Source: Picochlorum sp. 'celeri'
Lineage: Eukaryota; Chlorophyta; Trebouxiophyceae
Length of the DNA stretch: 64,000 bases
Reading direction: 5' to 3'
Assembly: GCA_010909725.1 (NCBI GenBank)
Contig: JAACMV010000005.1
Span: 1-64,000, forward strand
Shown: piece by piece, positions 25,952 through 54,093 of the stretch
Position numbering within the stretch: position 1 is the stretch's first letter
How the letters are laid out: each line of letters begins with the position of its first letter
Notes under the pieces: generated by a model
Told to the model about the DNA's origin: nothing
The model's input: the letters and a program-made list of their open reading frames with translations, nothing else
Databases searched by the model: none
Made by a program: the position numbers and the translations under genes

Positions 25952-28900
25952 ATGAGTGCCCAGACCTCCAGCGTAGTCCCCAGAAGTCTAGAGGATTTGG
26001 CTCAACCTCACATAGAGTCATTTGATTACTTTATTCAAGATGGAATGAGAAATTTGGTGGAGAATATGAGGCCAGTTGAGGTTCGTGAAACGCCCCACAC
26101 GAGTATGTTGCTGGCAGGGAACTTGGTTGACCATCTTCTCTTGTTTCTGCATGATGCAGGTAGCGGATCCGAAGAGCGGAGACATCACACAATTCTGGAT
26201 CAATGATATTGCTGTCCTGAGACCGGTGAAAGACGAGGCATCGTCATCGGTGTTGGACCCCAGACTTCTGCCGCGAGAGTGCCGAGAGGGGGTAAGTTGG
26301 CATAGTTTCTCATGTTGGATGTGGCCTGTGGGTTGGGTGCAACTTCTCAACATATAATGCTTGGCTTGTAGGGAACAACGTACCGGGCGCCTTTGATGGT
26401 GGATATCAGTTGGTCCTCCAATGTTGATGGACAGCTGGTGTCACATCACATCACAAAAAGGCTTGGTCAGCTTCCGATCATGCTGAAATCACAAGCTTGC
26501 TACCTGAAGCACATGAATGTTGAAGATCTCAGGCGTGTGGGAGAGGAAGGGACCGAATTTGGTGGATACTTTATTTGTAATGGCATTGAGACGATAATTC
26601 GAATGCTCATTGTCACAAGGCGGCATTATATTCTGGCATTAAGAAGAGGGGCTTACAGAAAGCGAGGTCCTTTGTTTAGTGACTTTGGTAACATCAATTC
26701 GCTGTGTGCGGAGCGACGAGTCCTCTATCACCAATCGATGTCACTATCTGATGGATGGTGGTGTAGTCTTTTCCATACTTTTGAACAAAGCGGAATACTT
26801 TGTGCCTGCTGGGATACTTCTTCAAGTGCTTTTGCCGACGTGTCTGATAAAGAAATCTATGAATCTTTGTTGGCTGGAGGAAAGTCGGATGATGCGCATG
26901 CGATCTTTGTGGCTGAGAGCTGAAGTATTGCTGAGGTCAGTGCAACAGGCTAGGGTTAATATCAAAACGGCAATGTTTGGAGTATCTAGGTAACCTATTT
27001 CGAGGCGTTTTGGATGCTCCGGAATCAAAGTCAAATTATGCCGTGGGTGTTGACCTGATAAGTGAGAATTTATTCATCCATCTCACACAAGGCAAAGATA
27101 AATTGGCATTGGCATTTCAGATGATCATCAAATTATATGCATTGGTATGTGCATTCTTTTTACTTGGAAAAGAGATAATGTAGTTATGGTGTTGGAGTTG
27201 TTCGCAGGTGAATGGGCAAGTGCATTGAGGACAACCCTGATGCTCTAACACACCAGGAGGTTTTGTTACCCGGGCATTTACTTCTGAAGTTCATGAGGGA
27301 GCAACTGGAGACATGCTTGGAGACTTTGAAGAATCAAATTCGCAGGGATTATGAAACAGAGTCTCATCTTGTGAATCTACACGATGATATCTATATCAGG
27401 AGAATCACGGATCGATGGCCTGATGTGGTAGGTTCATATTGTGTTTTCGGTTGGTCAGTGTAAGGGAATTTATGCATATATTTTATCGTCACAGGGACAA
27501 AAGTTTGAATATTGTTAAACACCGGGAATATGATTTCTCGATCGGGGTCTAGATCTGTCCCAGTCAACAGGATTTACTGTGGTGGCAGAGAAATTAAACT
27601 TTTACAGGTACGACACACAAATTTGTGCATAGTGAGGGCGGGGGCTTAGGATGAACTCGTAATGTTTAGGACTTGACTGAGATGGCAGATGCCTTCATGA
27701 TTCGTCCAATCCAATTGATCCTTCTGAAGCCGCTGCCATGCATAAGGTCAAGGCAGTATTTGTGGGCGCTTTCATTATCTGTTCTTATTCTTGTTTGTGC
27801 TGCACCTGACTTGATTTCTGATATATTGTAGGTATCTCAGTCACTTCAGGTCGATTCATAGAGGCGCCTATTTCGCAGAACTGCGAACAACAGCAGTAGA
27901 AAAGCTTTTGCCCGAGTCGTGGGGCTTTTGTGTCCGGTTCACACGCCTGATGGGGCACCCTGTGGCTTGCTCAATCATTTGAACGACATCGTGTGTTGTT
28001 GTACCGGGGGAGGCGTCGCAAGGACAATGTTGAGGAATCTCTGCTTCAGGGGCTGAGCAGGATGGGCCTTGTGAGGAAGGATGCAAACGTATTGTTGCCT
28101 CAAGTGATGTCACTGTCCAGTTGGATGGAAAAGTTTATTGGATGCAAGATAGAAGAGATGTTGATGCAGCTATTTGCCATTTAAGATCGCTTAAAGCTAG
28201 GAAATTTGCCATAGAAGTGGTTCTACTTCAGTGCCCAAATCTGATGCAAGTTTCTTCAAGAGGTTCCTGCACATTTGGAGATTGTGTATCTTCCATACAA
28301 GAGAGGGTGAACCTTTCCAGGGATTTACTTGTTCACTCAAGGTGCACGGATGATGCGCCCCGTCCGGCAGATTGCAAGTAAATCTACAGAACTGATTGGC
28401 ACTCTGGAGCAAAGCGTGTTGGATATTTACTGCCCAGATGGTTCCCAGGGAGGGTCTAGAGGCTTGAAGTTTACTCATGAGGAATTTGGACCCCAGCAAA
28501 TGCTAAGTGTCGTTGCGTCTCTTACTCCTTACTCGGATTTCAACCAATCACCCAGAAACATGTATCAGTGCCAGATGGCCAAGCAAACCATGGGAACTGC
28601 TGCTCAGGCCCTTCCACACAGGACTGACAACAAGCTATACAGGCTTCAGACGCCTCAGACTCCTATTGTTCGCACACAGAGATATCCTACGTATGCGATG
28701 GACGAATTTCCAAATGGGACAAATGCGATTGTTGCAGTTCTTGCCTACACAGGATATGACATGGAGGATGCCATGATTCTGAATAAATCATCCGTAGAGC
28801 GTGGTTTTGCGCATGCTTCACTATATAAGACTGAGTCGATCAATTTGTCGAAAGAAAAGGGCTCTGATTTAAAATTTGCTGCAGGCAATAGGCGGGAAAA

Positions 28901-45329: not shown

Positions 45330-48300
45330 ATGTCGAAATCAAAGAAAAGAAAGAGAGCTACTAAACCAACCACCAGTTCTGGGGAAGAAAACCTCCTCCA
45401 TGGAGACCACATTTGGAACACCCAGTCCATTAACTGTTCATTTGGCGGTTTTTGCAAGATAGAAAGTCTGCGAGATGCCCTTCGCAAGCAAAATCATTGG
45501 TTCAGCCAGCTAGATGTGCATGTCCATAATGTGATGACCATCTATATCAGCGAGAATGAAGGGCAGATGTTTCCGGGTGGGGTTATAGACGAAAACACAG
45601 GCAAAGAAAAAAAATGCACAACAGGGGATCTGGTTAAGGTCTGGGACTGTAGCGTATGCAACTGTGTTGCAGTGCCTCCGGAACCAGAAGATCAGGCAAA
45701 ACAAAAACGAACAGACCCTCGCCCGGAAGAAAGCATTCTACGACCTGTGTGCAAGGTATTGTGCAGACACTGGGGATAGCACGAGATTGGAGTAATGAGG
45801 ACTTGGCTAACTTTTCTGCCGTATCCAGCAACAGAGAAGGACAGCTGTACCAACCACCACAACCACCTTGCCAAGTATGATGTGTATCTTTCTCGATTCA
45901 TTCACTATTGTCTACAGTCTGAAGACAGTTTTCTTGGCGAACATCTGTATCTATTTGAAGGACTGACTAGAAAGCAGTATAATTTTGTTTCCGGTAGAAT
46001 AATGGCGCTGTTGAGGGAAGAGAAGGCGAGCAACAATGCTAATGACGATGATGACGAAAAGGAGAACGAGAGCAATAACACCAAGAATGATGAACAGGAG
46101 AAGAAGAGCATCCATAAAATGTTGGAGGGAACCAGTCCACGTAGTAGAGAAGGGATACCTGAAAAGGTTTGGGATACATTGGAGTGTTTCATGTCTGACT
46201 TCCTCCTGCCAAACTACTACAATAAAAAAATCGTAGATTTCGATTACCAGGAGAGGAGCGTAAAATTATATCAAATGCTCCAAGTCCTGGCACCCCATGG
46301 ACGGGAGATGCAGAGGTTGGCACTGGAGAACAGGAAGAGGATGGGGCAGAGAGAAACAATCAGTGCTGCAGAAGCAGACAATCTCTTTGCGATGCCGAAA
46401 TTTAGATCTCTAGGCGGAGACACAGATTGGAGAGGAACTGATGGCAACCGTTTCCGGGCTCTGTATGACAACAAGCAAATCGAAGATCTCTATGCCGAGA
46501 TGAGGAAGAAGAAAGAGATAGACGGGGACAGGCTCTCACGTGTCGAAAGGATTGCATATAATGTCATCAATGGGTTTGTACGAAGAAGGAATGCGATGAC
46601 CCGAAAAACACCGAGAATGAGGAGGCAACAGAAATGGGCTTTTGATCTGTGTCCCCAAGCAAGCTACCGTGCTAAATACATGCCCCTCACCAACACCGGT
46701 CTTCAACAGCTGCTGAAATTCATCGCCAAGCGCGATGAAAAAGTGAAGGAATCGAGACGAAGAGTACAAGAGCTACAGGAAGAAGACGTGGCGTTTATGA
46801 TGGAGGAAGGCATTGACAAGGATAGCAGCCTTGCGAAGCACTTGCTTAGTTTTAGATATTGGGACGAATGCTTCAATCTGAAAACCGTGATGAAGGATAA
46901 ATATCCAGAGGATCCCAGGTCGTTTCTCCTAATGTGCTACCAACACCCTGATCAAATCCCAAAGGCCAAGAGATTTGGAAACTTTATATCCACAGATGGG
47001 TATGGTACGACAGCATCGCTGGAAAAGCTAAAAGAAGGCATCGACAAAGATATCTGCAAACTCGGCAAACAAATTGCTACTTTGAAAGATAAGAAAGGCA
47101 AGACGAAAAAAGAGAAGGAGGATCTGGAAACCCTTAAGGAGCAGAGGAAACAAATGTGGTTGGACCAGAAGAAGCAACAGTACAACATCCCTGAGGAAAG
47201 TGGATTCACAGTGACTCACATTCTCCGTCAGGAAGATATGGATACTGTAGAGTCACTTTTAGATAGATGGATCAAGGAGTCAGGAGACATATCAAAGGAG
47301 TGCGGCGACATGGTTGTCACCATGAAAAGAGAATTCATGACGGTCTTCGAGCAAGTCAGGCAGGGGGATCCTGATCGATCCAGAGGAAGAGATACAATGG
47401 ATTTCAATGCACGCCTGCTTCATGATCTTGCCAAAGAATGGATTGAAAAGGATATGTCGGTTGAATGGAAGGAGAGGGACATGTCAGAGGAAACTCGCAG
47501 TCAGTTTCAGAAGATGGGAAAAGAGCTGATGTCACTACTCGAGAAGGTGCAAATCTATGAAACCAATCGCAAAGTCATTGGAATAGACATGGGTAAATCC
47601 AATGTAGCGACAGCAGTATATCATGATACCTCTTTGCAAAGAGTTCACATGTCCAATGAGAAAACAAACAAGGAGGATCGTTTCAAAACGCTCAGCATAA
47701 CTAACAAGGCATGGAGGAACAAAAGTGGTCAGATGGCATACACGTTTTTGATGAACAAACGAATCACAAAATTCGTACCAGAAATGAATAGCCGTCCAAC
47801 CACAAGGACAACGAACACCGACAGTATAATGGAGTCTTATCGATTCATGAACACTCAGTGGAAGAATGGCACAGGTGCTGAATCAGGTGGAGGTTTGGAG
47901 AAAGCATTTTTTACAGGTTCTTACAGAAAGCGGAAGATGTTCCAGGGCTTTAAGAGACAGAAGGCGATAGCAGACTTTGTGATGTTGGTTCTTCAGGGAG
48001 GAGACGAGGAAGCAAGTTTCTGTCGAAAACAAGCAAAGGAAGTCATTGTGGCATATGGAGATGCCTGCCCTCGGCATAATACCAAAGGAGTGGCCCCAGC
48101 ACCAAACATGCCCTTTTATCGAAAGTTCAAAGAGCTTGCAACCTGTGTCTTGGTTGATGAACACCGTTCATCAATGAATTGTTCGGGTTGCATACAAGAG
48201 ATGAAGGATGGGTGTGTTTTCAGGTTGAAGTGCTGCAGAAACAACACATGTGTTAGAACAACCTGGAACAGGGACACGAATGCTGGAATCAACATGTTCA

Positions 48301-48368
48301 ATTTGCTACTCTGGAAGATATTGTATGGGGATCGCCCTAGAACATTCTCAAGAACTAAGAAGAAATAA
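45330..48368 (+). CDS. Fanzor (eukaryotic TnpB-like RNA-guided nuclease), nearly intact copy
   Basis: A roughly 1000-residue Fanzor1-like protein. ATG 45330 starts MSKSKKRKRATK, a nuclear-localisation-like segment. The frame is open to 45776 and again from 45795 to 48368 (857 codons), with one TAG at 45777 between. Other frames read more protein-like between 45.72 and 45.90 kb (KKAFYDLCARYCADTG, then SNEDLANFSAVSSNREGQ), so an indel or a GT-AG intron near 45756-45828 is likely. The core has KWAFDLCPQASYRAKYM, TDGYGTTASL, a long Lys/Glu coiled coil at about 47040-47180, RuvC-I IGIDMGKSNVATAVYHD, VIVAYGDACPRHN, VLVDEHRSSMNCSGC, zinc-finger CX2C..CX4C and RuvC-III NRDTNAGINMFNLLL. Catalytic Asp residues are present. 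The Glu lies in the DEH motif next to the zinc finger, as reported for Fanzors with a relocated glutamate. Confidence 0.88.
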
Positions 48369-50574: not shown

Positions 50575-52336
50575 ATGTCAGACTCTTGGGAAGAACACGC
50601 GGAGGGTTCGAAAACGACGAATTTGAATCCTTCAGCGGCATCATTCTCTTTTAATCCAACAGTCGCTACATTTGTGCCATCAGGTAAAACAAGCGAAACT
50701 GAAAAAAACGGATCAGGACTCAGGGGAGAAAGAAAGCAAAGAGGGTTCCGTCGGCAGTGGCCGTAGAAGACAAAATGGCCAGCGCTTCTCTGAAGGATGA
50801 TGATGACGCGTACTTGAAGATGAGGCACATAGAAAGGAAAAGATTGAGCGAGTGCTGACAGAACTCGACGAGCGAGGATGGCAGGTGCGTCAGAGTTTGT
50901 ATTTCCCCTGTACAAGGACCCCCATGTTCATGACGGAAATGCGATATTCGTGCAGAGAGCATATAGAATGTGGTTTTTATAGGCCACGTTGATGCAGGAA
51001 AGAGTACCACTGCCGGACAAATCTATTTCTGACAGGCGGTGTGGGATGACAGAACAATAGAGAAGTACGAAAGAGAAGCAAAAGAAAAGAATAGAGAGAG
51101 TTGGTACATGGCATACATCATGGACAACCAACGAAGAGGAAAGGGCCAAGGTACGTTGATGACGAATCCAATGGTTGTGCTTCTCCCAATTGACAGGTTG
51201 TTTTGCTCTATTGGCAGGGTAAGAGCTGTCGAAGTTGGGCGGAGCTCATTTTGAAACAACAAGAAAAAGGTTTTATACCATTTTTGGATGCACCGGGGCA
51301 CAAGTTCTTTTGTACCAAATATGATATCAGGCGCTTCGCAAGCTGATATCGGAGTAGTGCTCGTGATTTCTGCGGAAAGGGAGAGTTTGAGACAGGCTTT
51401 TGAGCGACGGTGGCCAAACCAGAGAACATGCACAGTTGGCCAAGACACTAGGGGTCTCAAAACTCATTGTGCTATCAATAAATGGATGATCCTTCGATCG
51501 TTGAGGATAAAGATGCTTGGTCACAACAGCGTTATGATGAGATTGTTGGAAAATTATCTCCCTTTCTTAGAGGGTGCGGGTACAATCCAAAAAAGGACTT
51601 GATTTATATTCCCATCTCAGGACTTATGGGGCACAATATGAAGGAACTTGTTAGCAAGGATGTCTGCCCTTGGTACAACGGAAAGCCATTTTTCGACATT
51701 CTTGATGATGTCGAAGCAATCAGTAGGGATCCTTTTGCTCCGTTCCGCATGCCAGTTATGGACAAATACAAGGACATGGGCACAGTAGTGATGGGCAAAT
51801 GCGAATCAGGTGTTGTTGCTAAAGGAGACAAGCTAATGATGATGCCAAATAAGGTCAAGGTGAAAGTCACAACTGTGTGGAGAGATGAGAACGAGGTCAA
51901 CGCAGCTCGACCTGGGGAGAATTTGAGGCTTCGTCTGGCTGGCATAGAAGAGGATGAAGTTTCTTCTGGCTTTGTGCTTTCAGACTGTAACAAGCTCGTT
52001 CCAGTCGTACACCAGTTTGAAGCACAGATTGTAGTATTGGACCTCTTGGAACACAAACCCATCCTGACAGGAGGATACACGGCAATTTTGCATTTACACT
52101 CTATAGTGGAAGAGTGCGAAGTAACGAAGATCGTCGCAGCCATCGATCCGAAAACCAAGGAGAAGAAGAAAACGAAATTTGTCAAGAGTGGATCCATATG
52201 CATCGCCCGCATTGCTGTTGAGAAGCCCATCTGTGTGGAATCTTTCCAATCAAACCCCCAGCTTGGAAGATTCACCTTGCGCGACGAAGGTCGCACTATT
52301 GCTATTGGGAAAGTCACAAAAATTCCCAAGAAATAA
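50575..52336 (+). CDS. SUP35: Eukaryotic release factor 3 (eRF3/SUP35)
   Basis: Translational GTPase that partners eRF1 at stop codons. ATG 50575 opens MSDSWEEHAEGS, followed by two overlapping PAM2-like PABP-binding motifs (LNPSAASFSFNP and FNPTVATFVPSG, residues about 17-38). A GT-AG intron near 50884-50975 is likely. The G domain has G1 GHVDAGKSTT, EKYEREAKEKNRESWYMAYI, an intron at about 51152-51217, then KTVEVGR-like, G3 DAPGH, FVPNMISGASQADIGV and G4 NKMDDPS. The clean C-terminal ORF from 51482 covers domains 2 and 3 (ISGLMGHNM, MGKCESGVVAKGD, CEVTKIVAAIDPKT, FTLRDEGRTIAIGKVTKI). Several one-base breaks between 50.76 and 51.48 kb split the G domain and are probably sequencing errors. 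Sequence ESWYMAYI plus PAM2 favours eRF3 over HBS1. Confidence 0.93.
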
Positions 52337-52585
52337 TTGTACCCTTCTCTGTAAGAAGAAGAAAGCATGTAAGCATGTAAGAATTTCTATTGTCGACACT
52401 AAAATGAGCACCAGGCAGCCCCTATTCCGTCTCAATCAGAGTTGTCTCACTCATTTGTTCATCTGTTGTCAGGTAGCCTCGGCCATTTCACTGGAAACAG
52501 ATTATATAAAATATTTTTCGAGTCGGAAATACAAATCAGTGACTTCATATTCAAGTGTAAATTGGTGGAATGAACACAGTGAATA
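52337..52585. other. eRF3 3' flank / leader of permuted tRNA-Val(CAC)
   Basis: No ORF of note. The last part (52579-52582, GTGA) is complementary to anticodon-loop positions 33-36 of the tRNA gene that follows, as expected for the precursor's leader. Confidence 0.4.
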
Positions 52586-52680
52586 CGCAGAAGGTCCGCA
52601 GTTCAATTCTGCGCTTGAGCACATATTTGTCCTCACTGAGGTCTGCTCGAGTGGTCTAGTGGTATGACGTCTGCCTCACA
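52586..52680 (+). tRNA. circularly permuted tRNA-Val(CAC): 3' half precedes 5' half
   Basis: The 3' half is at 52586-52621 (tRNA positions 38-73) and the 5' half at 52645-52680 (positions 1-37), with a 23-nt intervening sequence. Rejoined, the acceptor stem is GCTCGAG with CTTGAGC (seven pairs, one G-U). The anticodon stem is TCTGC with GCAGA (5/5) and the T stem CGCAG with CTGCG (5/5) around the loop TTCAATT. The D arm is GTCT/TGAC with AGTGGTA. The variable loop is AGGTC. The anticodon loop across the junction is CTCACAC, the usual valine form, with anticodon CAC and discriminator A73. No CCA is encoded. A TTTTT Pol III terminator follows at 52687-52691. Leader bases GTGA (52579-52582) can pair with TCAC of the loop, giving an intron-like helix for the splicing endonuclease. 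A box and B box are present but in reversed order. Confidence 0.93.
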
Positions 52681-52926
52681 GCCGGATTTTTCTTTCTTTT
52701 CCTTTTGCAGAACAAGGAAGGATCTTGGAGGGGGGTATAGGGGACGATATATCATTTGCAGTATGCATGTGAGAAGGATCGGACGTGTTCATGTCGAGAA
52801 TTCTTCCCTTCAGGTCGTTCAAGTTGTACATCAGTCATATTGAAGCTCGTCAGTACATCCAACGGGTGATCCATGCCATTAGGATCTAAAAATCTGAAAG
52901 TAAAAATTGCAAAATTGATATCGAGA

Positions 52927-53017
52927 TGTTAGACAGGAATCATAACCACTAGACCATTCGAACTGACGAGTGCAATGCACTTGTTCGAACCCAGAATTGA
53001 ACTGGGGACCTCCTGTG
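52927..53017 (-). tRNA. circularly permuted tRNA-Val(AAC): 3' half precedes 5' half
   Basis: On the minus strand the 3' half (53017-52982, positions 38-73) comes first, then an 18-nt intervening sequence containing the palindrome AGTGCATTGCACT, then the 5' half (52963-52927, positions 1-37). Rejoined, the acceptor stem is GTTCGAA with TTCGAAC (7/7), the anticodon stem CCTGT with ACAGG (5/5) and the T stem CCCAG with CTGGG (5/5) around TTCAATT. The variable loop is AGGTC, the anticodon loop CTAACAC with anticodon AAC, and the discriminator A73. The D arm is GTCT..TGAT with AGTGGTTA. T-rich runs that could terminate Pol III lie 13-25 nt downstream of the 5' half. It is convergent with the CAC gene 246 bp away and shares the same A-box and T-loop sequences. 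Confidence 0.93.
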
Positions 53018-53310
53018 AACCATTGTATGTGCTAGAAGCAGAATTTTCTCTCTTCCATATACCTGTGAAATGGCGTGGCGACAGATATTTTTGCTTTGTT
53101 AGACGCATTCGATCGTCTGAACTTCGTCAACCGAACTGAAACACAGTCTCAGGATACATAATAGTACTTTGCGTGGGATATCACAAGGTGTTGAGCAACA
53201 AGGAGTCATCAAAGTTCCGACAAAGAAAACAGGACATCTCGAGACAGGTGTTGCATTCATGTCTATCCATGCGTGCGTGGAATGGCACATATTCAAATAA
53301 AATACTTCAA

Positions 53311-54093
53311 ATGAAGGATTCGTCCAAGAAACACACAAAGAAGGGGAACAAGAGGCACAAGAACACTCTACACTCTGTTAGGTCGCATGCAGGGAACAAG
53401 AAGAAGAGTGTTCTGCAGTCGTTCAAAGAAAAACTACAAGGTAGTAAATTTAGATGGTTGAATGAAGTCCTATATACCAGGAGTGGTGATGAGGCTATGG
53501 TCTTGCTACGGGAGAATCCTGAACTGTATCGTGAATATCACCAAGGATTCAGAGAACAGACGAAGCAATGGCCGGAGAGACCGGTGGACAAAGCTATTGA
53601 ATGGTTATCCAAACGCCCTGAAGAGTGGAAGGTATTGGATCTCGGTTGCGGCGATGCTGAAATTTCAAGGCGAGCCAAGCAGGAAAATATTCAGAACTTT
53701 GACCTGTCCTCGTCAGCTCCAAACGTCACTGTCTGCAACATAGCATCATTACCACTAGAAGACGAGTCTGTGGACGCCGCTATATTCTGTTTGTCGCTGA
53801 TGGGAACAGATTATGGGTCTTTTATCGAAGAAGCCATGAGGGTGCTGAAGGAGAAGGGCTGGCTCTGGATTGCAGAGGTCCAAAGTAGGTGCATGGATGA
53901 CCAGGGCAATAATCTGGTCCATGAACTGATTTGTGCCATCGAAGCTTTAGGATTCGATCTAAGGTCAAAAACAGTCGATCAAAACAGCCATTTTTTCACG
54001 ATTGTACTGCAAAAGAAGAAGAACAAGAAGAGCAAGAAGAATTTGGTTGTCGATTGGCCGGTTCTCAAGGCTTGCACATACAAGAAACGCTAA
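53311..54093 (+). CDS. RRP8: Ribosomal RNA-processing protein 8 (RRP8), SAM-dependent methyltransferase
   Basis: Nucleolar methyltransferase, which in yeast makes m1A on 25S rRNA. The open frame extends to 53173 but only through a non-ATG codon. ATG 53311 (MKDSSKKHTKKGNKRHKN) gives 260 residues and ATG 53269 gives 274; both put a basic nucleolar-type tail first. Conserved blocks: SKFRWLNEVLYT, YREYHQGFREQTKQWPERPVD, motif I VLDLGCGDAEIS, QNFDLSS, VTVCNIASLPLEDESVDAAIFCLSLMGTDY, EAMRVLKEKGWLWIAEVQSR and HFFTIVLQKK. Intact single reading frame without introns. Confidence 0.94.
   Translation: MKDSSKKHTKKGNKRHKNTLHSVRSHAGNKKKSVLQSFKEKLQGSKFRWLNEVLYTRSGDEAMVLLRENPELYREYHQGFREQTKQWPERPVDKAIEWLSKRPEEWKVLDLGCGDAEISRRAKQENIQNFDLSSSAPNVTVCNIASLPLEDESVDAAIFCLSLMGTDYGSFIEEAMRVLKEKGWLWIAEVQSRCMDDQGNNLVHELICAIEALGFDLRSKTVDQNSHFFTIVLQKKKNKKSKKNLVVDWPVLKACTYKKR

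Follow-up and report, generated by a model that had tools for sequence, protein, structure and literature searches.

Permuted tRNA genes, in which the 3' half of the tRNA stands before the 5' half, are known from the red alga Cyanidioschyzon merolae and from prasinophytes, as an earlier note on the DNA analysed here stated and the available part of PMC3978253 confirms. The Soma 2014 table, in the portion of that source at hand, gives 34 such genes, at most 11 in any genome, none for valine and with a longest spacer of 74. Two permuted serine genes in the Amorphochlora nucleomorph were reported later (PMC4494063, excerpt), and in Auxenochlorella UTEX 250-A permuted genes came to light after tRNAscan-SE had returned an incomplete set (PMC12636532, excerpt). 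The Picochlorum SENEW3 paper, in its available part, used tRNAscan-SE; within the literature surveyed, a limited collection, no earlier report of permuted tRNAs in Picochlorum was found.

Here we describe permuted tRNA genes of Picochlorum sp. 'celeri', starting from a window of 64 kb, the whole stretch of DNA analysed (contig JAACMV010000005.1, positions 1 to 64,000). A phased diploid assembly of Picochlorum celeri, built from PacBio and Hi-C data, comprises 27.43 Mbp in two sets of 15 scaffolds at 46% GC (PMC7225527). The assembly searched here is diploid and holds 27,412,692 bases in 30 contigs, of which C1-C15 pair with C16-C30 as haplotypes wherever both were seen.

A pair of permuted tRNA-Val genes

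At 52586-52680 on the forward strand the window holds a complete tRNA-Val(CAC) in swapped order, a true circularly permuted tRNA gene. The earlier note had proposed a permuted gene of valine isotype with its junction between positions 37 and 38, and direct reading, script, ARAGORN and covariance models all bear this out. The 3' half (positions 38-73; 52586..52621, found by all four approaches) does lie 23 nt upstream of the 5' half (positions 1-37; 52645..52680), as reading and script agree. The intervening sequence (52622..52644) has no run of four or more Ts and would bridge the two ends of the acceptor stem in the circular form of the RNA. Rejoining restores the valine loop CTCACAC over the junction, with the anticodon at 52677-52679, and the 17 of 17 paired positions previously counted were obtained again: acceptor stem 7/7 (one G-T), anticodon stem 5/5 and T stem 5/5. 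The D stem forms three of four pairs. CCA is unencoded, A73 being followed by CAT. The terminator noted 3' of the 5' half is present as a T5 run at 52687..52691, a likely Pol III terminator, and before the gene the leader bases GTGA (52579..52582) can pair with T33-C36 in the register of the splicing endonuclease. Farther upstream on the same strand stand GAAATAC (52526-52532), one mismatch from GAAATTC, and TATATAAAA (52503..52511), a possible promoter element 75-83 nt 5' of the 3' half.

A second permuted gene, tRNA-Val(AAC), absent from the earlier note, lies on the reverse strand at 52927-53017. Its 3' half (positions 38-73; 52982..53017; script, covariance models, ARAGORN) and 5' half (positions 1-37; 52927..52963; script, ARAGORN) are separated by 18 nt (52964..52981). 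An AAATTC element stands upstream (53041..53046), as it does 5' of other permuted and contiguous tRNA genes, and a terminator-like TTTTGC run follows the 5' half (52909..52914), both on the reverse strand. The two genes are convergent, tail to tail, 246 bp apart; they differ by compensated changes in the main stems, all three of which are intact in both. Between them, 52739-52794 shows 78% similarity to C2:240268-240332. Their neighbours are a gene resembling eRF3, present with its C-terminal part (51482-52336; eRF3a is its best PDB match, E 2e-88), and a Methyltransf_8 gene (53173-54093). Elsewhere in the window, an 857-aa open reading frame at 45795-48368 (+) has no Pfam or PDB match; its C-terminal part may resemble OrfB/Fanzor-type nucleases, judged by eye.

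Ordinary scans do miss such genes, as had been predicted: neither ARAGORN nor Rfam at gathering scores detects any tRNA in the window. The permutation-aware search that the earlier note had proposed, run on the 64 kb, recovered Val(CAC) and added Val(AAC), exactly two permuted tRNAs against none in 40 first-order Markov simulations. One extra candidate from a looser scan (26001-26342) was discarded for poor quality, in stems or spacer length. A permuted covariance model trained on a set that includes both genes (R1) scores them at 79.4 (CAC) and 82.0 bits (AAC). A second model (R2), for which only six contiguous tRNAs of this genome were rotated into permuted order and the Val pair was left out, gives 65.7 bits (E 4e-19) for Val(CAC) and 64.6 bits (E 1e-18) for Val(AAC), and its next-best match in the window reaches 7.5 bits. 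Free RNA folding of the two Val precursors found stability no better than that of dinucleotide shuffles (z 0.31 and -0.53), and the anticodon stem is missing from the minimum-energy fold of the Val(CAC) precursor.

Permuted genes elsewhere in the genome

A partial survey for the 37/38 junction found at least 20 loci in permuted order, which cover 19 isoacceptors; the contiguous loci known number 19. Permuted genes serve Val (CAC, AAC), Ala (AGC, TGC, CGC), Leu (AAG, CAG, TAA), Ser (AGA, GCT), Gly (GCC), Arg (TCT, CCT and TCG, the last at two loci), Cys (GCA), Met (CAT), Thr (CGT, AGT) and Tyr (GTA); the permuted Met(CAT) is taken as the elongator, since the contiguous Met gene resembles an initiator by eye. 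The loci outside the window lie on contigs C2-C15 (L076, L082, L087, L092, L094, L102, L120, L123, L127, L129, L132, L151, L153, L173, L187, L196, L214 and L221). The survey covered short stretches around B-box pattern matches, scanned with the script and R1; R2 was applied to 77 loci picked after the first scans. On C1-C15 the stretches read comprise 94 of 94 matches to GGTTCRANYCC, 81 of 86 to AGTTCRANYCT (the other five belonging to a tandem array) and 41 of 53 to CGTTCRANYCG, one in a Phe locus; the 404 TGTTCRANYCA places in the genome fall outside it. In the stretches read, neither form was found for Gln, for His or for some of the isoacceptors that serve Gly, Arg, Leu, Thr and Pro. Ten plant tRNAs joined into one query returned only Pro(AGG), on both haplotypes, and was set aside as too insensitive.

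The contiguous set consists of 34 RF00005 matches over cut-off, which by our count are 18 distinct loci, plus one pattern locus (L008). It is a lower bound, 63 of 866 candidates having been scored, and several of its 19 loci carry introns. Anticodons of contiguous loci, read for all except C4:806259, include by eye Ser(TGA) at L008, Arg(CCG) at L033, Leu(CAA) at L037 and Pro(TGG) at L054, where ARAGORN output differs (Phe, Trp, Arg and Gln, respectively). Fifteen loci with a good T arm were checked, four of them known genes (L008, L054, L076, L081). Among the 11 others, L126, L158, L198 and L156 resemble tRNA 3' parts by eye and enter neither count; in the first three, T-runs stand close behind the 3' end, and they are probably contiguous genes with introns.

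R2 scores the 18 permuted loci outside the window at 27.1-70.8 bits, the next lower being L126 (18.5) and L147 (13.3). The weakest members are Ser(AGA), which has 27.1 bits and is absent from the R1 list at E <= 1, and both Arg(TCG) loci, at 29.6 bits; what supports these three is the stems found by the script, together with the ARAGORN calls on the rejoined halves. The 128-nt spacer of Arg(TCG) keeps both models from placing its 5' half correctly. Low model scores alone are no arbiter, since ordinary tRNA loci score as high as 29.7 bits with R1. The two Arg(TCG) genes, L120 (C8:59.3 kb, +) and L123 (C8:537.6 kb, -), are near-identical, and their spacers look hairpin-rich by eye. Low-scoring candidates from a loose scan (L009 1528-1788 and L172) were excluded for poor stems or long spacers.

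Controls on the set used 19 genes, with one copy of the two Arg(TCG). ARAGORN called all 19 with the expected anticodon once the halves were rejoined, none in genomic order, and 39 of 342 combinations of halves from different genes, 12 of these within the same amino acid. Acceptor and anticodon stems are perfect in 19/19, a perfection that is partly selected because the collecting scan demanded good stems of both kinds.

Possible signals for transcription

A run of at least four Ts, starting no more than 35 nt beyond it, occurs within 40 nt 3' of the 5' half in all 19 genes, compared with 19% of random 40-nt stretches, and 12 have TTTTGC within 45 nt of the 5' half. One T4 run lies inside the Leu(TAA) gene itself. 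Upstream, AAATTC is found at 10 of 19 permuted genes and at 9 of 17 contiguous ones (17 of the 19 known loci were taken in), where random sets average 0.64 of 19. It starts 29-42 nt 5' of the 3' half in nine permuted genes and 55 nt away in Tyr; within the nearest 46 nt the comparison is 9/19 permuted genes against 2/140 non-tRNA B-box decoys. It is missing upstream of 9/19, three of which were read for 38-40 nt only. Permuted and contiguous genes thus seem to share an external element, and such an element would explain how the permuted genes get by with A and B boxes in inverted order. TATA lies close to some permuted genes; as it is near some genes only, it was not adopted as a common promoter.

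Transcription may yet depend on the boxes, in view of a match to the TFIIIC B-block domain (30.8 bits, within an open frame of 1597 residues), given by a model that also matches 8 of 14 prokaryotic controls, four of them over cut-off. At two contiguous genes, L013 (tRNA-Asn) and L029 (tRNA-Phe), a T-arm fragment, GAGGTCCCGGGTTCAAA, stands directly upstream of position 1 and ends within the T loop. It may act as a B box from outside the gene, or be left over from a duplication or permutation.

Proposed splicing and maturation

Known tRNA-splicing endonucleases recognise a bulge-helix motif, in which the eukaryotic enzymes use an A-I pair between base 32 and intron base -3. Anticodon-intron pairing is mentioned in the available part of PMC3978253. 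In a permuted precursor the leader stands where an intron would have its 3' end. Across the 19 permuted genes, which are partly non-independent (Ala, Leu, Thr and Val groups), loop positions 32-36 pair with leader positions -3 to -7 in 70 of 95 cells, while six other registers give 31-41. The 32:-3 pair is present in 17/19 (11 T-A, 5 C-G, 1 G-T). When leaders were swapped among genes the mean was 50.9, and 0 of 20000 swaps reached 70; part of the pairing excess is shared composition, since swapped leaders exceed the other registers. Individual genes vary: in Val(CAC) 32:-3 is a non-standard C-A and 33-36 are fully paired, in Val(AAC) 32-34 pair, and the Ser(GCT) leader pairs poorly. For the set as a whole, the sequences place a predicted BHB-type leader-loop motif at the 37/38 junction.

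The splicing-endonuclease domain PF01974 occurs at nine places in the genome, in two kinds. One kind accounts for seven places (C10, C16, C21, C25, C9, C12, C26), and on C9, C12 and C26 it sits at the same position near the contig start, as if subtelomeric or repeated.

Known families and the leader-anticodon pairing point to the following route. Pol III would make one RNA, running from the leader through 3' half, spacer and 5' half into a trailer and ending at the T-run. Folding of this precursor would form the anticodon and acceptor stems, and the terminal leader bases together with the anticodon loop would make up a bulge-helix motif, to be cut by the tRNA-splicing endonuclease. A ligase would then link 37 to 38, giving a circle from which RNase P and tRNase Z would excise the spacer, and addition of CCA would yield tRNA-Val. 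Transcription, the circle, end trimming and charging of the Val tRNAs are all predicted in this way. As a whole, permuted Val genes that give one transcript, a spliced circle and, by end processing, tRNA-Val are the best explanation of the locus, with a probability of about 95%.

Alternative explanations

Could the halves be decayed relics, the working Val(CAC) and Val(AAC) genes being ordinary ones elsewhere? The support for function of the Val pair is comparative and, with 63 of 866 candidates scored, the count of contiguous genes is a minimum, which gives this idea what room it has. According to the earlier note, a contiguous tRNA-Val(CAC) of identical sequence elsewhere, combined with an absence of junction or spacer reads from this locus, or long reads with the halves in normal order, would speak against permutation. 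DNA search of the 27.4-Mb assembly found no contiguous copy; with the rejoined Val(CAC) and Val(AAC) as queries, only the split halves on C5 and C20 matched. The sole contiguous tRNA-Val in the RF00005 search, itself a lower bound, has anticodon TAC. The order is swapped on both haplotypes, in an assembly that matches the PacBio-built one, and the Val pair region, with both genes, is 100% identical across 481 bp between C5 and C20. Nor do the genes look decayed, given three intact main stems and compensated changes between them. Val(AAC) would moreover be needed for GTT and GTC, which make up 125 of the 250 Val codons in seven raw open reading frames of the window, and no contiguous substitute was found.

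The 17 further permuted isoacceptors are likewise without a contiguous copy in a DNA search that used all the rejoined tRNAs as one query: every one of its 69 matches consists of separated halves or of permuted order. For 14 of these 17 both halves are on both haplotypes; the permuted Ala loci, three in number, have a counterpart on the second haplotype that has diverged or is partly matched (C4:267307, C4:770652 and C10:935324 differ from C30:266426, C30:784064 and C16:932338, one with opposite strand). Relics are thus very improbable. Less probable again is a split tRNA, with halves transcribed apart and joined in trans as in Nanoarchaeum. The halves do stand apart in the genome, but in 19/19 genes they share a strand, 11-128 nt from each other and with the 3' half first; separate terminators are wanting, T-runs of four or more occurring in 0/19 spacers and being present after the 5' half. 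An artefact of assembly or duplication, in favour of which nothing was found, is just as hard to credit, with the same order on two phased haplotypes and the architecture repeated at 20 separate loci.

Comparison with described systems

Of the tRNA genes found, standard scans would overlook about one in two, in a lineage used in biotechnology. Permuted isoacceptors would read 1472 of the 3717 codons (about 40%) in the seven raw open reading frames of the window, under the decoding rules applied, so that a large share of translation would rest on circular RNAs. With 19 permuted genes of one junction type and comparable leaders, the signals read by the endonuclease can be defined comparatively, 32:-3 being prominent among them, and the genome is suited to testing how permuted genes arise and spread.

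Beyond permuted, circularised Val genes, we lean, with reservations, towards a wider reading whose parts are held jointly. Nuclear tRNA genes here would be permuted as a matter of course, in a state that propagates itself, and circularisation would be needed for about half of the isoacceptors found, among them all three of the Ala anticodons found. Permuted genes would duplicate as permuted units and undergo anticodon shifts (Val AAC/CAC, Ala AGC/TGC/CGC, Leu AAG/CAG, Thr AGT/CGT), and an upstream element of GAAATTC type, common to permuted and contiguous genes, would make it immaterial in which order the A and B boxes stand and so let permutation spread.

The nearest likeness is to the type II (37/38) genes of Ostreococcus and Micromonas (Maruyama 2010, via the available part of PMC3978253), which share the order 3' half, spacer, 5' half, an hBH-type junction motif and a location in the nucleus of a green alga. 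Unlike the green-alga genomes in that portion of PMC3978253, with 3 to 6 genes each and none for Val, this one encodes 19 isoacceptors at 20 loci, Val accounting for two, and the longest spacer is 128 nt against 74 in the table. The genes of C. merolae (Soma 2007, via the same excerpt) have in common with these the gene order, presumably the route through a circular intermediate, a T-run after the 5' half with none between the halves, an unencoded CCA and, for some of the genes here, a TATA-like sequence upstream. According to that excerpt, 11 of 43 tRNA genes are permuted in C. merolae at four junction positions, whereas 37/38 alone was searched here, and TFC1 and TFC3 homologues escaped identification there, whereas a TFIIIC B-block match is found here, with a model that also matches 8 of 14 prokaryotic controls. 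Auxenochlorella UTEX 250-A, as far as the excerpt of PMC12636532 goes, is likewise a trebouxiophyte with a streamlined diploid genome and permuted tRNA genes. The kind of permutation is therefore already known, from a red alga, prasinophytes and Auxenochlorella. What is new, within the literature surveyed, is that tRNA-Val genes are permuted, that Picochlorum has permuted tRNAs, and how many there are; it is the extent of permutation that sets this genome apart.
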